From: Anaerolineae bacterium
Lineage (GTDB): Bacteria; Chloroflexota; Anaerolineae; Anaerolineales; Villigracilaceae
Direction of reading: 5' to 3'
Assembly (NCBI GenBank): GCA_022616105.1
Contig: JAKEFL010000036.1
Location: 1 to 36,866, forward strand
DNA length: 36,866 nt
This document shows positions 1,613 to 28,101 of the stretch, piece by piece. The notes under the pieces are model-generated. The model did no database searches. It was given only the letters and a program-made list of their open reading frames with translations, and had not been told where the DNA came from. A program made the translations under genes and the position numbers. Each line of letters starts with the position of its first letter. The stretch's first letter is position 1.

Positions 1613-3127
1613 ATGAAGCCATCTAAATCAACTTCATTCTTTACAGATACGAACATATTGCTATTGTTAGGACTGGCTTTATTCCTCCTCCATATGTTCA
1701 CTAATCACCAGTACGGATTCCATCAGGATGAAATGGTTGTACTGGATAACGCAAACAACCTGGATTGGGGCTTCATCGAATATCCACCATTGACTCCATT
1801 CCTTGCGCGCATCGAATTGACACTATTTGGCTTGTCTCTTGTCAGCGCACGGACGTTCGCTGCGCTGGCACAAAGTATTGTAATGGTGCTGACAGGTCTG
1901 ATGGCGCGTGAACTTGGCGGAAAAAGACCAGCACAGATCCTAGCAGCGGTTGCCGCGGCGATTGCACCTATTGCTCTCATTCAAGGATCGTTGATCCAAT
2001 ATGTGACCTTTGATTTTCTGTGGTCGGTGTTGATTGCTTATCTGGTCCTCCGATTGTTGAAATCAGAAGAGCCGCGCTGGTGGCTGGCAATTGGCATGGT
2101 GATCGGCTTGGGGATGATGACCAAGTATACGATGGCGTTTTATGTCGCGGGCCTGGTGGGAGGTGTGCTCTTCACTGGTGCACGTCGCTATTTGCGGAGC
2201 CCATGGCTATGGGCGGGAGTCGCTTTATCGTTATTGATTTTCCTGCCTAATCTCATTTGGCAAATTGAGCATAATTTCATTTCGTTGGAATTCCTTTCAA
2301 GTATCCATGAACGCGATGTTGAGATTGGACGCGCGGATGGATACATCATGGAGCAATTCGTCTTATGCGCCAATCCGTTTATGCTCCCATTATGGGTGGC
2401 TGGGTTGATCTATTATTTCAGGAGCGAGGCTGGAAAACGTTATCGCGTGATCGGCTGGATGTACGTTATTTCATTTTTGATCTATCTATTCACACAGGGT
2501 CGTTCGTATTATCAGGCGCCTGCTTATCCCATGCTAATCGCCGCAGGCGTTATTGCCTGGCAGCGGTGGCTGGAACAAATGACAGCGCAAAAGGCTCGAA
2601 TTGCTTTGGCAGCCACATGGATTTTCATAATTATTGGGGCAGTGGTTGGTGGCGTGCTGTCCCTGCCGGTCGCACCGATCAGCTCCCCGCTTTGGAATAT
2701 CACCAGTGAAGTGCATGACATTTTCACTGAACAAATTGGCTGGCATGAGATGATACAAACCGTCGCAGGCATTTACGCGAATCTACCTGAAGCGGAAAAG
2801 CCACGCGCAGGTATCCTTGCGGGGGAAAACGATGAAGCCGCCGCGCTAAATTTGTTTGGCGAGAATTATGGCTTACCCAAAGCGATTAGCAGCTCGAACA
2901 CATTCTTCCTGCGTGGATATGGTAATCCGCCGCCTGAAACGCTGATAGTTGTTGGCTTTTCGCAGGAAGCAGTCACCTCTCTCTTTGGGCAATGCGATGT
3001 CGCAGCGACGATCACGAATCCGCACGGCGTTGAGAATGATTTGCGAGATCCGCCAAACATATTTGTGTGCAGCAATCCGCGCTTGCCGTGGAATGAGTTG
3101 TGGAATAAATTGAAGCGATATTCATGA
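1613..3127 (+). CDS. GT39/ArnT-like membrane glycosyltransferase
   Basis: A polytopic protein of about 504 aa with roughly 10-12 hydrophobic segments and a soluble C-terminal tail of about 130 residues. The first extracytoplasmic loop carries HQDEM followed by WGFIEYPPLTP. This is the acidic-pair loop and following P-rich stretch typical of the PMT_2/GT39 family, which uses polyprenyl-phosphate sugars outside the membrane. I choose the ATG at 1613; an upstream ATG at 1583 would overlap the preceding sulfotransferase by 23 bp. The gene overlaps the next one by 4 bp (ATGA), so the two are translationally coupled. Donor sugar and acceptor cannot be deduced. Confidence 0.8.
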   Translation: MKPSKSTSFFTDTNILLLLGLALFLLHMFTNHQYGFHQDEMVVLDNANNLDWGFIEYPPLTPFLARIELTLFGLSLVSARTFAALAQSIVMVLTGLMARELGGKRPAQILAAVAAAIAPIALIQGSLIQYVTFDFLWSVLIAYLVLRLLKSEEPRWWLAIGMVIGLGMMTKYTMAFYVAGLVGGVLFTGARRYLRSPWLWAGVALSLLIFLPNLIWQIEHNFISLEFLSSIHERDVEIGRADGYIMEQFVLCANPFMLPLWVAGLIYYFRSEAGKRYRVIGWMYVISFLIYLFTQGRSYYQAPAYPMLIAAGVIAWQRWLEQMTAQKARIALAATWIFIIIGAVVGGVLSLPVAPISSPLWNITSEVHDIFTEQIGWHEMIQTVAGIYANLPEAEKPRAGILAGENDEAAALNLFGENYGLPKAISSSNTFFLRGYGNPPPETLIVVGFSQEAVTSLFGQCDVAATITNPHGVENDLRDPPNIFVCSNPRLPWNELWNKLKRYS

Positions 3128-4083
3128 AATATTCCATTGTCATCCGCGCCTATAACGAAGAAAAACACATCGGGCGTTTACTCGAAGGGATTCGACATCA
3201 AACGCTCAAAGACGCAGAAATTATCTTGGTCGATTCCGGTTCAAGTGATTCAACAATCGCCATTGCAGAATCCTTTGGCGCCCGGATTATAAGAATTCCT
3301 CCAAGCGAATTTACATTCGGGCGTTCACTCAATTTCGGACTTCGATCAGCGACACGTGAATTTGTTGTCATCGCCAGCGCGCATGTATATCCCGTGTACC
3401 CTGATTGGTTGGAGAGCCTCCTTCGCCCGTTTGAAAATGACAACATCGCTTTGACCTACGGTCAACAGCGCGGACCCGAATCCGCAAAATTTTCTGAGCA
3501 GCAAATATTTCATCAATGGTATCCCGATGTCAGCAAGCCAAAACAGGAAACTGCCTTTTGCAATAACGCTAATGCTGCCATTCGAAAAAGTTTATGGGAG
3601 AAGAATCCGTACGACGAAACATTGACCGGACTGGAGGATATAGCCTGGGCGAAATTGGCGAAAGAGCAGGGATATGACATTACGTATGTAGCCGAGGCGG
3701 AGGTTGTGCATGTGCATAACGAGACTCCGCGCGGTGTGTTCGATCGGTATCGCCGCGAAGCGATGGCATTCAAGCGAATTTACCCCGAGTCGCATTTCAA
3801 TATCTATGATTTCGCGCGCCTCACAACAATGAATATTCTGAGCGATTTGTGGCACGCGGCACGTGAACGCGTGTTGTGGAAGAATCTTGCGTCCATACTT
3901 TGGTTCCGTTTCATGCAATTTCATGGGACAAGAATGGGTTATCGCGAAACCAGCCTTATCACTCCCCAACTGCGTGAGACGTTTTATTATGCGAGAGAAA
4001 GAAAGACATTTGCACCTGGCGCAAGTGCAGGTGAGAAAGATGGAAAGAAGAGGGATATGGAACGGATTCGATATAATGAATAA
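3124..4083 (+). CDS. GT2 family glycosyltransferase with a repeat-derived C-terminal tail
   Basis: A GT-A fold glycosyltransferase, probably cytoplasmic or membrane-associated. It opens with SIVIRAYNEEKHIGRLLEGI and the nucleotide-binding DSGSSD motif. There is a CNNANAAIRKSLW substrate-loop segment and an ED pair (GLEDIAWA) that supplies the base, as in rhamnosyltransferase-like GT2 enzymes. It overlaps the upstream GT39 gene by 4 bp. The last 27 or so residues are unusual. Bases 4002-4040 are a 39-bp palindromic repeat that recurs, inverted and with one mismatch, at 14235-14273, so roughly residues 293-306 (core FAPGASAGEK) are encoded by a mobile repeat. Its stop overlaps the next gene's probable start by 8 bp. 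Confidence 0.85.
   Translation: MKYSIVIRAYNEEKHIGRLLEGIRHQTLKDAEIILVDSGSSDSTIAIAESFGARIIRIPPSEFTFGRSLNFGLRSATREFVVIASAHVYPVYPDWLESLLRPFENDNIALTYGQQRGPESAKFSEQQIFHQWYPDVSKPKQETAFCNNANAAIRKSLWEKNPYDETLTGLEDIAWAKLAKEQGYDITYVAEAEVVHVHNETPRGVFDRYRREAMAFKRIYPESHFNIYDFARLTTMNILSDLWHAARERVLWKNLASILWFRFMQFHGTRMGYRETSLITPQLRETFYYARERKTFAPGASAGEKDGKKRDMERIRYNE
4002..4040 (+). repeat. 39-bp palindromic repeat, copy 1, inside a GT2 gene
   Basis: Internal dyads CACCTG/CAGGTG and CACTTG/CAAGTG overlap in this element. The reverse complement at 14235-14273 differs at a single base by my reading. It is translated in frame as the C-terminal tail of the GT2 protein. Confidence 0.85.
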
Positions 4084-23708: not shown

Positions 23709-23737
23709 GCAATTTATTTGCGTAAATTATTTTCGAG

Positions 23738-23743
23738 TATCAT
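23738..23743 (+). promoter_or_regulatory. -10 hexamer TATCAT, leaderless promoter of the sensor kinase
   Basis: TATCAT ends 7 nt before the ATG at 23751, with no Shine-Dalgarno sequence. This favours the ATG over the in-frame TTG at 23718. Confidence 0.45.
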
Positions 23744-23750
23744 TGCAATT

Positions 23751-25508
23751 ATGCGCAGGTTTGAAACTCCTTATATTGCCGACTGGTTTGCCACTTCTTT
23801 GCGCTGGGTGGTGCTGGTTGGTTTGATCATATCTCTATCTTTACGCGGGGAGTCAATTACTGATCACATTTGGTCTTTTGGTCTCTTGTTTGTCTGGAAT
23901 GTTATTATGAGCCTGTTGGCAGGCCTGAGCGTGCGTATCAGCAGTTATCATCGTCAGATTGTGCTGAGTGTGGACTTCCTGCTGGCGGCAATATTCTTCT
24001 GGTTGCAGGGCGGCTTGGATGGCTCATCAGTCTGGGTTGGGCTTTTCCCCATTCTGACAAGCGCTGTATATTTTGAAATGTGGGGGGCATTCATCACTGC
24101 CGTACTGTTTACACTATTGCAATATGTTGTCTCCTTCGATTCGTTTTCAAACGGCATTCCTTTAATGGCATTTAGCGGTCTTGTAATGACCTTGCTGATC
24201 GGTCTTGCAAGCGGACTTAGCGGGCGCTTTTTAATGAGACGTTTGCGTACCGAGCGCCACCACCGTTTGGATGAAGAGGAACGCCGCCGCCACATGGAAA
24301 GTGAACGCCTGCGCGCCATTTACGAACTCACCTCTACACTGACAGCGACTCTCAATTACAAACGCGTTCTCGACTCAGCGCTTGATCTTGCATATACAGC
24401 TCTGGACCCGAACCCCGACCCTGAGGAGCAGAACCAAGACGAACGACTGGTAAGTGCAGTGTTTTTGTTCAAAGGCAATGAGTTACAAGTTGGTTCGGCG
24501 CGGCGATTCACCAATTCAGACCTGCGCGCGACTTTACATGGAAACGAAGGGATTCTCAAAAAAATATTTGATGAGGGAGAAGCGGTTCTCACGCATGACA
24601 TAGGCTATGACCCGGAACTTGGGCGCATTATTGCATTGCGCGCCTGTACATCTGCTTATTGTTTTCCTTTAAGAAGCGGATTCAACATCTATGGCGCGAT
24701 GTTATTTGCCCATCCCGACCCAAGTTATTTCACACGGGAACGCTGTGGCTTACTGGATATTATTGGCAGGCAGGCAGTGATTGCCGTTCAGAACGCAAGT
24801 CTTTATCAAAATCTTGTTGAAGAGAAGGAACGCATGGTTGAAGTGCAGGAGGAAGCGCGCAAGAAACTGGCGCGTGACCTGCACGATGGCCCCACACAAT
24901 CGGTCGCAGCGATGGCGATGCGTATCAACCTTGCGAGGCGGATGATCGCAAAAGACGCAAAGGCAGGGGTGGATGAACTTTTCAAGATTGAGGAACTTGC
25001 TCACCGCACTACGAAAGAGATCCGCCACATGCTGTTTACGCTGCGTCCGCTCATTCTTGAGTCGCAGGGGTTGACCGCCGCTCTGGAAGCAATGGCTGAG
25101 AAGATGCGTGAAACCTTTGCCCAGAATGTGATCATCAATGTGGATGAAAGCGTCCTGGACAATCTTGAAATGGGCAAGCAGGGTGTGGTCTTCTATATCA
25201 TTGAAGAAGCCGCGAATAACGCGCGCAAACACGCCAATGCCCTGCATATCTGGGTGCGGCTGAGGTCATTTGAATCAGGCATTGCATTATTGGAGATCGA
25301 GGATGACGGGCTGGGATTCGATGTGGAAGCAGTGAATAAATCCTACGATAAGCGCGGGAGTTTGGGGATGATCAACCTGCGCGAGCGCGCCGAGCTGGTC
25401 CACGGTTTGCTTCATATTGATTCTGCACCAGGGAAGGGGACGCGTGTACAAGTCTATATCCCGCTCACTGAAGAAGCCGCAGATCGCCTGCATCACGCGA
25501 AGATGTAG
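23751..25508 (+). CDS. sensor histidine kinase, NarL/DegS type (TM - GAF - HisKA_3 - HATPase)
   Basis: About 585 aa. The N-terminal 150 or so residues hold about five membrane helices, followed by a charged coiled-coil linker (RLRTERHHRLDEEERRRHMESERL). A GAF-like domain follows (about 190-355). The HisKA_3 dimerisation box is EEARKKLARDLHDGPTQSVAA with the phospho-acceptor His at about 378. The C-terminal ATPase has EEAANNARKHA (N box, about 480) and DDGLGFD. No response regulator is adjacent, so the partner is encoded elsewhere. The in-frame TTG at 23718 would overlap a -10-like TATCAT, so I start at 23751. Being next to the glycan locus may be chance. Confidence 0.9.
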   Translation: MRRFETPYIADWFATSLRWVVLVGLIISLSLRGESITDHIWSFGLLFVWNVIMSLLAGLSVRISSYHRQIVLSVDFLLAAIFFWLQGGLDGSSVWVGLFPILTSAVYFEMWGAFITAVLFTLLQYVVSFDSFSNGIPLMAFSGLVMTLLIGLASGLSGRFLMRRLRTERHHRLDEEERRRHMESERLRAIYELTSTLTATLNYKRVLDSALDLAYTALDPNPDPEEQNQDERLVSAVFLFKGNELQVGSARRFTNSDLRATLHGNEGILKKIFDEGEAVLTHDIGYDPELGRIIALRACTSAYCFPLRSGFNIYGAMLFAHPDPSYFTRERCGLLDIIGRQAVIAVQNASLYQNLVEEKERMVEVQEEARKKLARDLHDGPTQSVAAMAMRINLARRMIAKDAKAGVDELFKIEELAHRTTKEIRHMLFTLRPLILESQGLTAALEAMAEKMRETFAQNVIINVDESVLDNLEMGKQGVVFYIIEEAANNARKHANALHIWVRLRSFESGIALLEIEDDGLGFDVEAVNKSYDKRGSLGMINLRERAELVHGLLHIDSAPGKGTRVQVYIPLTEEAADRLHHAKM

Positions 25509-25518
25509 TCTTTCAGCT

Positions 25519-25593
25519 TCATTTGAATATCTTTCCTAAAATTGGTTTTGCATTTATCACCACCCTTGCCCGATGGCTAAGGCGGTTTTGTAC
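25519..25593 (-). pseudogene. C-terminal fragment of a second rdgB copy
   Basis: Read on the minus strand, these bases give NRLSHRARVVINAKPI, a few more codons and a TGA stop at 25521-25519. The intact rdgB at 26241 ends NRLSHRARAVMKAKPI plus RELTE. Most base differences between the two are at third codon positions (CTC/CTT, GCG/GCA, CCT/CCA, ATA/ATT), so this is a truly homologous coding end, about 80 percent identical over 56 bp, and not a chance match. The rest of the gene is missing to the right, where vapBC begins. Confidence 0.8.
25568..25589 (+). repeat. left direct repeat flanking vapBC (att-like core)
   Basis: Identical at 21 of 22 positions to 26290-26311, in the same orientation and 722 bp apart. 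Both lie in rdgB C-terminal coding sequence. vapBC lies wholly between them. Confidence 0.75.
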
Positions 25594-25603
25594 CCGATTA
25601 ATG

Positions 25604-25609
25604 TATAAT
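25604..25609 (+). promoter_or_regulatory. -10 hexamer TATAAT of vapBC
   Basis: A consensus TATAAT lies between the rdgB fragment and the vapB start at 25632. AAGG at 25621-25624 could serve as a weak ribosome site. Confidence 0.5.
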
Positions 25610-25631
25610 GAACATCAGAAAAGGCTTAAAG

Positions 25632-25862
25632 ATGGAACAAATAACTATTCGAGTCAAAGATAGGAAAAAGGCACAAACGCTTTTAGATTTTCTCAAGTCA
25701 TTGGATTTTGTTGAAAGCGTAACTGAGAAAGAACTGTCAGATACGGACGAATCACAAGTGGACAAAGGGGAAAAAGAGTTCTTCGCCTTGGCAGGTTTGT
25801 GGGAGGGACGCGATATTTCACTGAAAACCATTCGTGAGCAAGCCTGGCCGTATCGCGCATGA
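25632..25862 (+). CDS. VapB-like antitoxin
   Basis: A 76-aa acidic protein that begins MEQITIRVKDRKKAQTLLDF and ends with EKEFFALAGLWEGRDISLKT plus a short tail. The C-terminal FFALAGLWEGRDIS segment is typical of antitoxins that wrap a PIN-domain partner. The N-terminal half is a strand-helix that may bind DNA or dimerise. I start at 25632 behind AAGG rather than at an ATG at 25608 that lies within the TATAAT box. It overlaps the PIN toxin gene by 4 bp (ATGA), the usual order and coupling for vapBC, and is expected to repress its own promoter. Confidence 0.8.
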   Translation: MEQITIRVKDRKKAQTLLDFLKSLDFVESVTEKELSDTDESQVDKGEKEFFALAGLWEGRDISLKTIREQAWPYRA

Positions 25863-26233
25863 TCCTTTGTGATACAAATATCTTGATTGAGTTCTATAAG
25901 GGCAATTTGCCTGTCATCGACGAATTGCATGAAATCGGAGTGCGTGATCTTGTTGTTTCAGTTGTCTCTATCGGTGAGTTATATTATGGAGCAAGGGATA
26001 AATCTGAACTGACGAAAATGCGGAAGCATTTATCTTTGATGAAACAAATTCCTCTGGATCCTGATATTTCTAATCACTTCCTTGCTTTGTTGGAAGAATA
26101 TGCTTTGAGTCACAGGTTGAGTGTGCCCGATGCATTAATTGCTGCGACTGCACTTTCGCAGAATTACTTGCTATACACATTGAATGTGAAAGACTTTCGT
26201 TTTATAACAGATTTAAAACTTTATAAAGCATAA
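25859..26233 (+). CDS. vapC: VapC-type PIN-domain ribonuclease toxin
   Basis: A 124-aa PIN-domain protein with the acidic metal site intact: Asp5 in LCDTNILIE, Glu40 in SIGELYYGA, Asp91 in VPDALIAATAL and Asp112 in NVKDFRFI. It would cleave specific RNAs when freed from its antitoxin. All catalytic residues and the normal length are present, so the module looks functional. The gene is flanked by two copies of the rdgB 3' end, the intact gene beginning 8 bp beyond its stop on the opposite strand. Confidence 0.92.
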   Translation: MILCDTNILIEFYKGNLPVIDELHEIGVRDLVVSVVSIGELYYGARDKSELTKMRKHLSLMKQIPLDPDISNHFLALLEEYALSHRLSVPDALIAATALSQNYLLYTLNVKDFRFITDLKLYKA

Positions 26234-26240
26234 TATAGAA

Positions 26241-26885
26241 TTATTCCGTTAATTCCCTCAATATAGGTTTCGCCTTCATCACCGCCCGCGCCCGATGGCT
26301 GAGGCGGTTTTTTTCTTCCATGGATAGTTCTGCCATTGTTTTCCCCAATTCAGATAAAAGAAATATGGGATCATAACCAAACCCGCCTGTGCCGCGTTCT
26401 TCGGGGATGATCTCTCCTTCGCAGATGCCTTCAAATATCTGGAGTGCGGAAGCAAGCTCCTGCAATTCCAAGCGGCGGGCCGATTGACTCCAGAGGGAGT
26501 CTGGAATTGCAATCGCAATCGTGGCATGGAATCGCGCAGTCCATGGGCGAAATTTATCTTGCAGGTTTTGCAAAAGATATAAACGACGATCTTTATCAGT
26601 TGCATTTGGTTTGGGAGAGTATCTTGCGGAATATAAACCAGGCGCGCCATCCAACGCATCCACTTCCAAGCCTGAATCATCGGCAAGCGAGATCATTCCA
26701 CTGGAATTCGCGAACGTGAGTGCTTTTTTCGTCGCGTTCTCTGCATAGGTCTTGCCATCTTCGATGACATCGAGTTCGAGATTGATCTGGGATGGCGTAA
26801 CAAGTTCAATACCTGTATCTCTCAGCAGGTATTGCAATTCTTTTACTTTGCCTTTGTTATTGGTTGCGATGAGGAGTTTGTTCAT
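26241..26885 (-). CDS. rdgB: RdgB/HAM1 non-canonical purine NTP pyrophosphatase with a palindrome insertion
   Basis: The enzyme hydrolyses ITP, dITP and XTP to keep them out of nucleic acids. Family marks are IATNNKGKVKEL at the N-terminus, SLADDSGLEVDALDGAPGLYSARY, then FEGICEGEI, RGTGGFGYDPIF and the C-terminal EEKNRLSHRARA. At 214 aa it is about 15-20 residues longer than usual. The excess is residues about 126-149 (DSLWSQSARRLELQELAS), between RFHATIAIA and LQIFEGI, where relatives have a short turn. That segment is encoded by the palindromic element 26440-26511. The downstream end is duplicated across vapBC. Confidence 0.92.
   Translation of the reverse strand: MNKLLIATNNKGKVKELQYLLRDTGIELVTPSQINLELDVIEDGKTYAENATKKALTFANSSGMISLADDSGLEVDALDGAPGLYSARYSPKPNATDKDRRLYLLQNLQDKFRPWTARFHATIAIAIPDSLWSQSARRLELQELASALQIFEGICEGEIIPEERGTGGFGYDPIFLLSELGKTMAELSMEEKNRLSHRARAVMKAKPILRELTE
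26290..26311 (+). repeat. right direct repeat flanking vapBC (att-like core)
   Basis: Located in the C-terminal codons of intact rdgB; 21 of 22 identical to 25568-25589. Confidence 0.75.
26440..26511. repeat. TGGAGT-family palindrome inside rdgB
   Basis: TGGAGTGCGGAAGC-AA-GCTCCTGCAATTCCA forms an imperfect hairpin at 26440-26470. TGCAATTCCA (26461-26470) also pairs perfectly with TGGAATTGCA (26502-26511), and GACTCC/GGAGTC forms an inner hairpin at 26486-26501. The shared AGCAAGCTCC core links it to the copy at 13178. Confidence 0.85.
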
Positions 26886-26926
26886 TTAATTTCTATTGTT
26901 TTTAACGGGAAAGCCCAAAGCCTCAG

Positions 26927-26982
26927 CCACGGATTTCACGAATTCACACGGAATTTAAAAACAAATTCGTGAAAATCCGTGG
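26927..26982. repeat. CCACGGATTTCACG hairpin repeat
   Basis: The left arm CCACGGATTTCACGAATT (26927-26944) pairs with 26964-26982 with one bulged base. It fills the 166-bp gap between rdgB and the first CAP lipoprotein gene, together with unremarkable A/T-rich DNA. Confidence 0.85.
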
Positions 26983-27051
26983 AATTCGTGGCAAAGAATT
27001 TGCTTTGCGTGATGCAAGCCCACGTAGTAAAGGAGAGCCTTCATTTGCAAA

Positions 27052-28101
27052 TTACGGACGCCCAAAATCTACTGTGTAATAACCACCATAGGCAGTGTCT
27101 GCAACGTAGGCGTATCCCACACCCATCTCCACGGCATTTGGGTTCAGAATGGCATCGCGGTGGATTTGATCATTCATCCACCAGTCAAATGCAGTCTGTG
27201 GATAGCCGCTGCCATAAATGATTTCTTCCGAATACGAGGCGCTGTATCCTGCCGCCGCGATCCGTTCATGGACAGATGAACCATCCGAGCCTGTGTGGCT
27301 GAGCAAACCGTGACAAGCCATATCCATGCTGTGGTTCTGCGCGGCTAGAGCGAGCTGTGGATTGACTGCCAGTGCGGGGAGTCCGTTTTGGGCACGGGCG
27401 TTGTTGATCAGGGACGCGATCTCATTGAGATACGATGAACTGCTGGTGTAGTTGCAGCTTGCAGGTCCGCTTGGCTGAGATATGGGTGTGCCGCCTGATG
27501 TCGTTGGAACGGGTCCGCTAGTCGACGCGGTGGCATTGCCGATCAGTATCTTGACCCAAAATGAACTTTCCGTTCCAATCGAGAGCGTTTCACCGTTCGC
27601 ATTCTTCAACTCATAAAAGCCAGTATATGCTCCGTCAATGGATGGTGCAGTGAGTTCAACAGAAACATCCACAGTCTTGCCTGCCTCCGTTTGCGGGACT
27701 GGCGAGGAGTCAGGAGTTTCCATTCGGTCGCCTGCCACAAAAGCGATGGTATATCCGCTCCAATTACATTTGCCTGTGTTCATGAATCGCCAGGTCTTGG
27801 TAAATTTTTCTCCGCGCGTCATGAGCGCGTTGTCTGGAACAGTTACATCTTCGAGAAGGACAGCACTGTCTTTACATGAGGTTTGGGCTGTGGATGCCGT
27901 GCCACCAGGAGTGGTGGTGGTTGATGGATCGGAGGTGGAAGTTGGCGGGATATCTGTCGGCAGGGATAAGCCTGGTCTTGTCGGTGGCAGGGTAGAGGTC
28001 ACGAAAAGAGGCGCCGTAGGGGCGGGAGTCTCTTCCGAAACTTTGATACACGAGCCAAGGCTTAGACTCGTGATCAGGAGGAATATCCAAATCTTATTCA
28101 T
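27052..28101 (-). CDS. lipoprotein with NBR1-type Ig domain and CAP/SCP domain (copy A)
   Basis: About 349 aa, exported. A type II signal peptide ends in the lipobox LSLGSC (Cys about 18), followed by a Thr/Pro-rich linker. An Ig-like NBR1 FW-type domain follows (DVTVPDNALMTRGEKFTKTW, then NTGKCNWSGYTIAF and SSFWVKILI), and a C-terminal CAP domain. CAP marks are SLINNARAQNGLPALAVNPQL, AAQNHSMDMACHGLLSHTGSDGSSVHERI and ENI-like SEEIIYGSGYP with NDQIHRDAILNPNAVEMGVGYA. The CAP His/Glu site is retained. ATG at 28101 is preceded by TACAAT at 6 nt; the upstream in-frame ATG at 28116 overlaps that box. It is a paralogue of the next gene upstream, 42 bp away. Its role at the cell surface is unknown. 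Confidence 0.85.
   Translation of the reverse strand: MNKIWIFLLITSLSLGSCIKVSEETPAPTAPLFVTSTLPPTRPGLSLPTDIPPTSTSDPSTTTTPGGTASTAQTSCKDSAVLLEDVTVPDNALMTRGEKFTKTWRFMNTGKCNWSGYTIAFVAGDRMETPDSSPVPQTEAGKTVDVSVELTAPSIDGAYTGFYELKNANGETLSIGTESSFWVKILIGNATASTSGPVPTTSGGTPISQPSGPASCNYTSSSSYLNEIASLINNARAQNGLPALAVNPQLALAAQNHSMDMACHGLLSHTGSDGSSVHERIAAAGYSASYSEEIIYGSGYPQTAFDWWMNDQIHRDAILNPNAVEMGVGYAYVADTAYGGYYTVDFGRP

Follow-up and report, generated by a model that had tools for sequence, protein, structure and literature searches.

How does a vapBC toxin–antitoxin module come to lie between two copies of the 3' coding end of rdgB? The question is raised by contig JAKEFL010000036.1 of an Anaerolineae bacterium (assembly GCA_022616105.1), of which we analysed 36,866 nucleotides; this whole stretch is referred to here as the window. 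Within it, vapBC occupies positions 25632-26233 and is flanked by intact rdgB on one side and by a second rdgB 3' end on the other, both on the minus strand. The observation is real and is part of a recurrent pattern. On balance, we lean towards an origin in which homologous recombination in rdgB brought in the module together with a foreign allele of the gene end, and the resident end was left behind.

The second rdgB end is a fragment of 71 bases (25519-25589, minus strand) that comprises the last 22-23 codons and the stop codon TGA, with no start attached. Its minus strand translates to QNRLSHRARVVINAKPILGKIFK followed by its own stop, and the corresponding end of intact rdgB to KNRLSHRARAVMKAKPILRELTE and a stop. 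Intact rdgB (26241-26885, minus strand) encodes a predicted XTP/dITP diphosphatase of 214 aa (PF01725, E=7.4e-57; TIGR00042 above its cut-off). By local alignment, the direct repeat formed by the two ends has a left copy of 58 nt at 25532-25589 (81% identity; the ungapped version spans 52 nt, 25538-25589) and a right copy at 26253-26311, within the 3' coding end of the intact gene. The interval between the copies is occupied by vapBC and its promoter. The left edge of the module (25590-25631, plus strand) holds the putative promoter, with a perfect -10 box TATAAT at 25604-25609, 14 bp from the left copy, and the stretch before vapB; the -10 box and the ATGGAACA start are common to relatives, and the flanks farther upstream differ. 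The right edge (26234-26252) runs from the vapC stop to the right copy and includes the rdgB stop (26241-26243), 7 bp from that of vapC.

Domain matches and gene order indicate that 25632-26233 is a vapBC type II toxin–antitoxin module, that is a putative toxin/antitoxin pair. The predicted toxin gene vapC (25859-26233, plus strand) encodes a PIN-domain protein of 124 aa (PF01850, 46.7 bits against a cut-off of 23.6, E=5.8e-12) that also matches the PDB VapC entry 7by2 (E=9e-9) and NCBIfam VapC models, the latter all under their cut-offs. The small upstream vapB-type antitoxin gene (25632-25862, plus strand; 76 aa, or 84 aa from an in-frame ATG at 25608) overlaps vapC by 4 bp and is conserved with it as a pair: a VapB match is present in 86 of the 96 stretches examined, window included, and VapB relatives adjoin VapC in other genomes. 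No Pfam family matched VapB at E 0.001. Among family relatives (entries L065, L066, L069, L071 and L076/L099), four vapC genes carry an in-frame stop and a fifth, in G001, is truncated; a full-length VapB match persists in four of these five defective cases.

The similarity between the two rdgB ends is far past chance. A repeat search returned a single 52-nt family (25538-25589 and 26260-26311, 83% identical, 722 bp apart), and this is the longest direct repeat in 24900-27100, the next longest being 16 nt. Of the final 60 nt of rdgB, 41 are matched in the fragment; at 29 loci of relatives, a second match in the 1,500 nt downstream of the gene reaches 31/60 at most, and tblastn with the rdgB end recovers the fragment at E=4.6e-6. 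When the 350 bp before the module were aligned locally to the 350 bp after it, the window obtained a flank score of 30, which was equalled or exceeded by four of 377 control open reading frames (ORFs). The layout and coordinates given in the earlier note, with vapBC between two rdgB 3' coding ends 722 bp apart, are thus confirmed, as is its remark that the copies differ mostly at third codon positions (8 of the 11 differences in the first 18 codons). Although the assembly comprises 367 contigs at 88% completeness, an assembly artefact or a chance similarity is hardly credible: copies 81-83% alike offer an assembler little to join on, and the pattern recurs in other assemblies, including two that each consist of one contig (G011 and G025).

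Comparison with relatives shows which of the two ends is the native one. All 29 rdgB loci have a single rdgB end within the 1,500 nt searched, as the earlier note had expected of relatives with no insertion, and none carries the fragment in the absence of vapBC, so that the outcome named in the note as a refutation did not arise. At nine of the 29, the end of a histidine kinase gene lies less than 100 bp from the sole rdgB end or overlaps it, and G006 is an additional such case. Ten loci from other genera have gaps of about 800-1,070 bp that hold a hydrolase-like gene (a name taken from sequence only, as are those of queG, the UvrD-like helicase, the transposase-like ORF and the toxin–antitoxin-like pairs below). 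The kinase was not seen within the analysed stretch at eight loci, G016 among them, and is in the opposite orientation at one. In the window, the kinase gene (23718-25508, plus strand; HisKA_3 and HATPase_c domains) is identified also by synteny and is convergent with rdgB; its stop lies 10 bp from the fragment, a spacing that by eye resembles that of G008. Since the rdgB end directly adjoins the kinase in nine relatives and is single in all, the fragment occupies the place of the native end. Most simply, then, the fragment is the native rdgB end in its native place, and what was added, between this end and the remainder of the gene, is vapBC plus a complete end. This bears out the proposal that the resident end was displaced while the gene kept a complete one. 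Different cargo between rdgB-end repeats, which had also been anticipated, was not seen: G014 (a kinase–rdgB gap of 524 bp) and G016 (kinase 1.8 kb away) hold extra genes between kinase and rdgB, yet a second rdgB end was not detectable in either.

The far side of rdgB has changed as well. Two CAP-domain genes follow it where relatives have queG, which adjoins rdgB in at least 15 of 20 stretches from relatives and is missing here at 26886-27051; a single search of the 88%-complete genome for queG, run with no positive control, gave no match. The absence of queG beside rdgB means that this side was also rearranged, and it would suit the suggestion that the module is what remains of a larger island, inserted into rdgB and since reduced to vapBC. 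We consider this very improbable, because the interval consists of the module and its promoter, without any visible remnant of a mobile gene, and because inserts just as small are found at other loci.

Flanking repeats are not peculiar to the window. Of 158 vapC relatives in the genome collection, the best 80 were examined together with the family loci; six records (L079, L081, L082, L083, L085 and L087) had already been set aside as duplicates of L121-L200 records, and five of 89 loci (L080, L090, L092, L195 and L196) were removed for short flanks, leaving 84. Controls were the 377 other ORFs of the vapBC stretches. Direct repeats on both sides with a score of at least 25 were found at 14/84 vapBC loci, window included, and at 5/377 control ORFs (p=9.1e-8); at a score of at least 36 the figures were 11/84 and 3/377 (p=9.4e-7). 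These thresholds, from seven listed, were chosen after the scores were known, and the 84 loci are not independent, the targets of L136 and L158 being related genes. No such repeat was present at the remaining 70 loci. The repeat had only two copies at nine of the 84, window included (p=1.4e-4; copy numbers refer to the analysed stretch, not to the genome, and that of L084 was not properly tested), and more than two copies occurred at L158, L122, L187 and L127. A comparison of the six gene-end cases (window, L152, L170, L162, L136 and L158) with all five control hits gave p=0.0066. Among distant VapC loci of the window's relatives, 4/26 scored at least 25 (p=0.0014 against the 377 controls). 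RelE/ParE loci reached a score of at least 36 in 4 of 30 cases, which was not significant against 47 ORFs of those short loci (p=0.07) and gave p=7e-4 against the 377 vapBC-stretch controls.

Some multi-copy loci have features of their own. At L127 (600-4500), L187 and L122 (5700-9000), runs of different toxin–antitoxin-like pairs are separated by copies of a single short direct repeat, in the manner of a cassette array. L158 (5670-8540) has four more partial copies of the NACHT gene end beyond the end of the gene itself; vapBC lies between the first two end copies, and other ORFs lie between later ones.

The genes whose ends are duplicated differ from locus to locus. Duplicated 3' ends belong to an Eco57I-type methylase (L152), a TPS-domain protein (L170), a SPOR protein (L162), two NACHT proteins (L136 and L158), an ABC transporter (L201), a methylmalonyl-CoA mutase (L202), a trimethylamine methyltransferase (MttB; L204) and a UvrD-like helicase (L231); only the NACHT and trimethylamine methyltransferase targets were used twice. 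In these 3'-end cases, the 3' end of the gene faces the module, one copy continues into a long ORF (which runs beyond the analysed stretch in L152 and L231) and the orphan lies across the module. The start of an 84-aa ORF is involved instead at L203, and L241 looks likewise; the repeats of L159, L178 and L250 look non-coding, the others are short multi-copy repeats, and L084 and L089 are not assigned to either the coding or the non-coding class. MttB offers a second view of the uninserted state. Of the 21 MttB loci found, 14 were examined: two (G011 and G017) have a VapC module behind the gene together with extra 26-nt gene-end copies, and a single end is present at the remaining 12. The copy that precedes the module in G017 is itself an orphan, lying 203 nt beyond the MttB stop.

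This variety bears on the proposal that vapBC is a site-specific integrative cassette, with rdgB as its attachment gene, a replacement 3' end carried along and a recombinase acting in trans. Integrative elements that enter the 3' ends of conserved genes leave the gene with a complete end and the displaced end on the far side, and the structure confirmed here has just that form. It differs in that no integrase was found, the target gene varies and the cargo is two genes. No integrase lies between the repeats and neither integrase nor transposase occurs among the 24 window proteins scanned (several ORFs at 8-18.9 kb lay outside the scan), in agreement with the earlier note, and there is no tRNA in the window. 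The part of that note that made rdgB a dedicated attachment gene was not supported: bracketed relatives use different, unrelated genes, related vapBC reside at loci other than rdgB, the rdgB 3' end was not seen in any of the other 95 vapBC stretches, and the insertions of G014 and G016 show no detectable rdgB-end scar. We saw, by eye, no common junction sequence among the bracketed loci. Nor is an attachment core needed to account for the 22-bp repeats. Their 21/22 identity spans the codons for KNRLSHR, and rdgB codons 191-197 (EKNRLSH) are the most codon-conserved run of the gene (in 14 genus members, the window among them, conservation is 0.96 there and averages 0.69 over conserved residues), so that codon conservation in rdgB explains the identity and a recombination site need not be invoked. 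Given the lack of an integrase in the scanned ORFs and the differing targets, a site-specific integrase cassette is unlikely, and we give it little credence.

The same core coincides with a predicted structure. On the plus strand, the intact end forms a hairpin with a T run over the core (26281-26315; -15.8 kcal/mol, z -2.1), a candidate terminator for vapBC that would formerly have served the kinase; the fragment's version is weaker (-9.8 kcal/mol, z -0.9). A hairpin in the rdgB coding end may thus be a terminator for convergent kinase transcripts. A consensus terminator scan did not list the 26281-26315 hairpin.

A more serious alternative is long target duplication, in which vapBC inserts at random, repair copies some 50-150 bp of the target, the copies are identical at birth and the orphan decays. 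Anatomy and repeat length agree with it. Direct repeats of variable target DNA stand on both sides of the modules, the targets are not sequence-specific and are gene ends or non-coding, and a single copy without insert was found at 29/29 rdgB and 12/12 MttB loci. In the window, 8 of the 11 differences in the first 18 codons are GC in the gene and AT in the fragment, as decay would give, with 46/94 in the pooled cases. We consider long target duplication a live rival of import, if a rather doubtful one, and the codons argue against it. Had resident DNA been copied, one of the copies could have decayed freely, and replacement changes would be expected to be frequent.

Gene end and fragment were compared over nine coding cases with 241 codons in total. 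A wider set of 12 cases gave a ratio of nonsynonymous to synonymous change (dN/dS) of 0.135 and had L241 in the wrong frame, so we relied on the nine. Differences at codon positions 1, 2 and 3 numbered 26, 9 and 59; the pooled proportions of nonsynonymous (pN) and synonymous (pS) differences were 0.062 and 0.37, and dN/dS was 0.13. Duplication followed by neutral decay was simulated with an omega of 0.05 for the gene copy, a neutral fragment and three mutation models of 200 runs each. Mean dN/dS was then 0.33, 0.25 and 0.23, and values as low as 0.13 arose in 0, 0 and 1 of the 200 runs. Mainly synonymous differences suggest that most of the divergence arose while both copies were functional alleles. 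Moreover, copy identity across the 14 scored vapBC loci was 81-95%, with no identical pair, where duplication would begin with identity. Most of the divergence between copies thus probably predates their meeting, the module having come linked to a foreign gene-end allele. The window pair alone has 16 usable codons, too few to decide between import and duplication by third-position bias. Over 45 nt, the fragment is nearest to G008 (39/45) and the intact end to G004 (39/45), the two matching each other at 36/45, a nearest-neighbour pattern that agrees with import (the G013 value is unusable owing to a false second match). The repeat at L254, which was not included in the nine cases, is also gene-end-like with mostly synonymous changes.

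Several results weigh against import. With a fragment omega of 0.5, the observed dN/dS was reached in 25% of simulated runs; L231 (pN 0.14, pS 0.25) resembles decay, and L158 contributes only 10 codons. At two distant VapC loci the repeat pairs are identical (L056, 26 nt; L039, 21 nt), as duplication would give. At L202, an IS3-type-transposase-like ORF (2447-3307) lies about 500 bp from the orphan mutase end, and the five control ORFs that score at least 25 reach scores of up to 101, so that the layout is not exclusive to vapBC. No candidate donor, in which vapBC would follow rdgB and the fragment would be missing, turned up among the 95 other vapBC stretches, which represent 88 distinct places. 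Trees of RdgB do not clearly point to a foreign origin: monophyly of the genus was not rejected (approximately unbiased test, p=0.218). A grouping of the window with G008 was weakly rejected for RdgB (p=0.021; p=0.151 for kinase and sulfotransferase), as was one with G008 and G016 (p=0.046), which kinase and sulfotransferase do not reject. In its last third, RdgB is similar to the genus.

Along its length, the identity of RdgB alternates between neighbours with no clear breakpoint. Only one of the 95 stretches has a detectable rdgB, an Anabaena record (L173, 5061-5630) in which a vapBC relative stands beside the 5' side of the gene, probably by coincidence. A search of viral contigs for VapC gave 25 pattern matches, none of which was confirmed as a relative.

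Homologous replacement, one of the options raised in the earlier note, is best supported, by the recurrence, the dN/dS of 0.13 and the differing targets. Under this account, a minimal module of about 660 bp, with its own promoter, vapB and vapC, would have entered the kinase–rdgB junction linked to a diverged, functional rdgB 3' end. The donor would be a piece of DNA from a related genome with vapBC after rdgB. This piece would pair and recombine within resident rdgB, so that a complete 3' end is retained, and its other end would become attached within the resident 3' end, through short homology or by end joining. The resident end would then remain as the fragment between kinase and vapBC, and it would be the gene-borne end, not the fragment, that came with the module. 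Comparable events may account for other VapBC and RelBE modules found beside different genes. In homology-facilitated illegitimate recombination, one end is anchored by homology and the other joins with short or no homology, yielding a product of this kind. The product expected is the same as that seen here; at the window locus the process is a candidate and not a demonstrated one. Our literature search did not find it together with toxin–antitoxin systems. Among the matches listed, neither vapBC bracketed by gene-end copies nor codon tests of such copies was found, most subscription journals lying outside the search.

As far as the cited texts describe it, the nearest known kind is the insertion of restriction–modification systems with long target duplication. 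Some of these systems insert with long, variable target duplications on the order of 100 bp (PMC3874152), which speaks for duplication; PMC3031569 also states that the duplications are long and variable, giving no length. According to PMC2654758, citing Nobusato, restriction–modification systems share addiction and apparent mobility with toxin–antitoxin systems. The likeness to the target duplication described by Nobusato (2000) and Furuta (2010), via PMC3874152 and PMC3031569, lies in an addiction-type unit with no known mobile element and long variable duplications. The cases described here involve vapBC or relBE pairs instead, and their two copies diverge in the manner of functional alleles, an argument against most of them having been copied from one sequence. 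A chromosomal toxin–antitoxin pair between two direct repeats is described in Microcystis aeruginosa PCC 7806, where a ParDE-type module lies beside MaOC1 between identical 152-bp repeats (PMC7935541). Unlike the copies here, those repeats are identical, begin 14 bp past the MaOC1 stop and contain an inverted repeat, and the words 'mobile' and 'transpos-' are absent from the main text of PMC7935541.

How chromosomal toxin–antitoxin modules move without an attached mobile element is, in our judgement, an open question. Recombination of the kind proposed here would explain insertions at gene ends without a site-specific enzyme, since only there does the gene stay whole afterwards. Gene-end scars with a mainly synonymous signature would make such events countable, each scar recording an insertion, the gene that it hit and the source of the end, imported or duplicated. 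We suggest, tentatively and at a little short of even confidence, that small toxin–antitoxin modules may spread between genomes, with no recombinase of their own, by hitching to the gene they sit behind, whose diverged but functional end supplies the homology for entry and keeps the gene intact while the resident end is left as a scar, and that the scars may later allow exchange, loss and the stepwise build-up of arrays.

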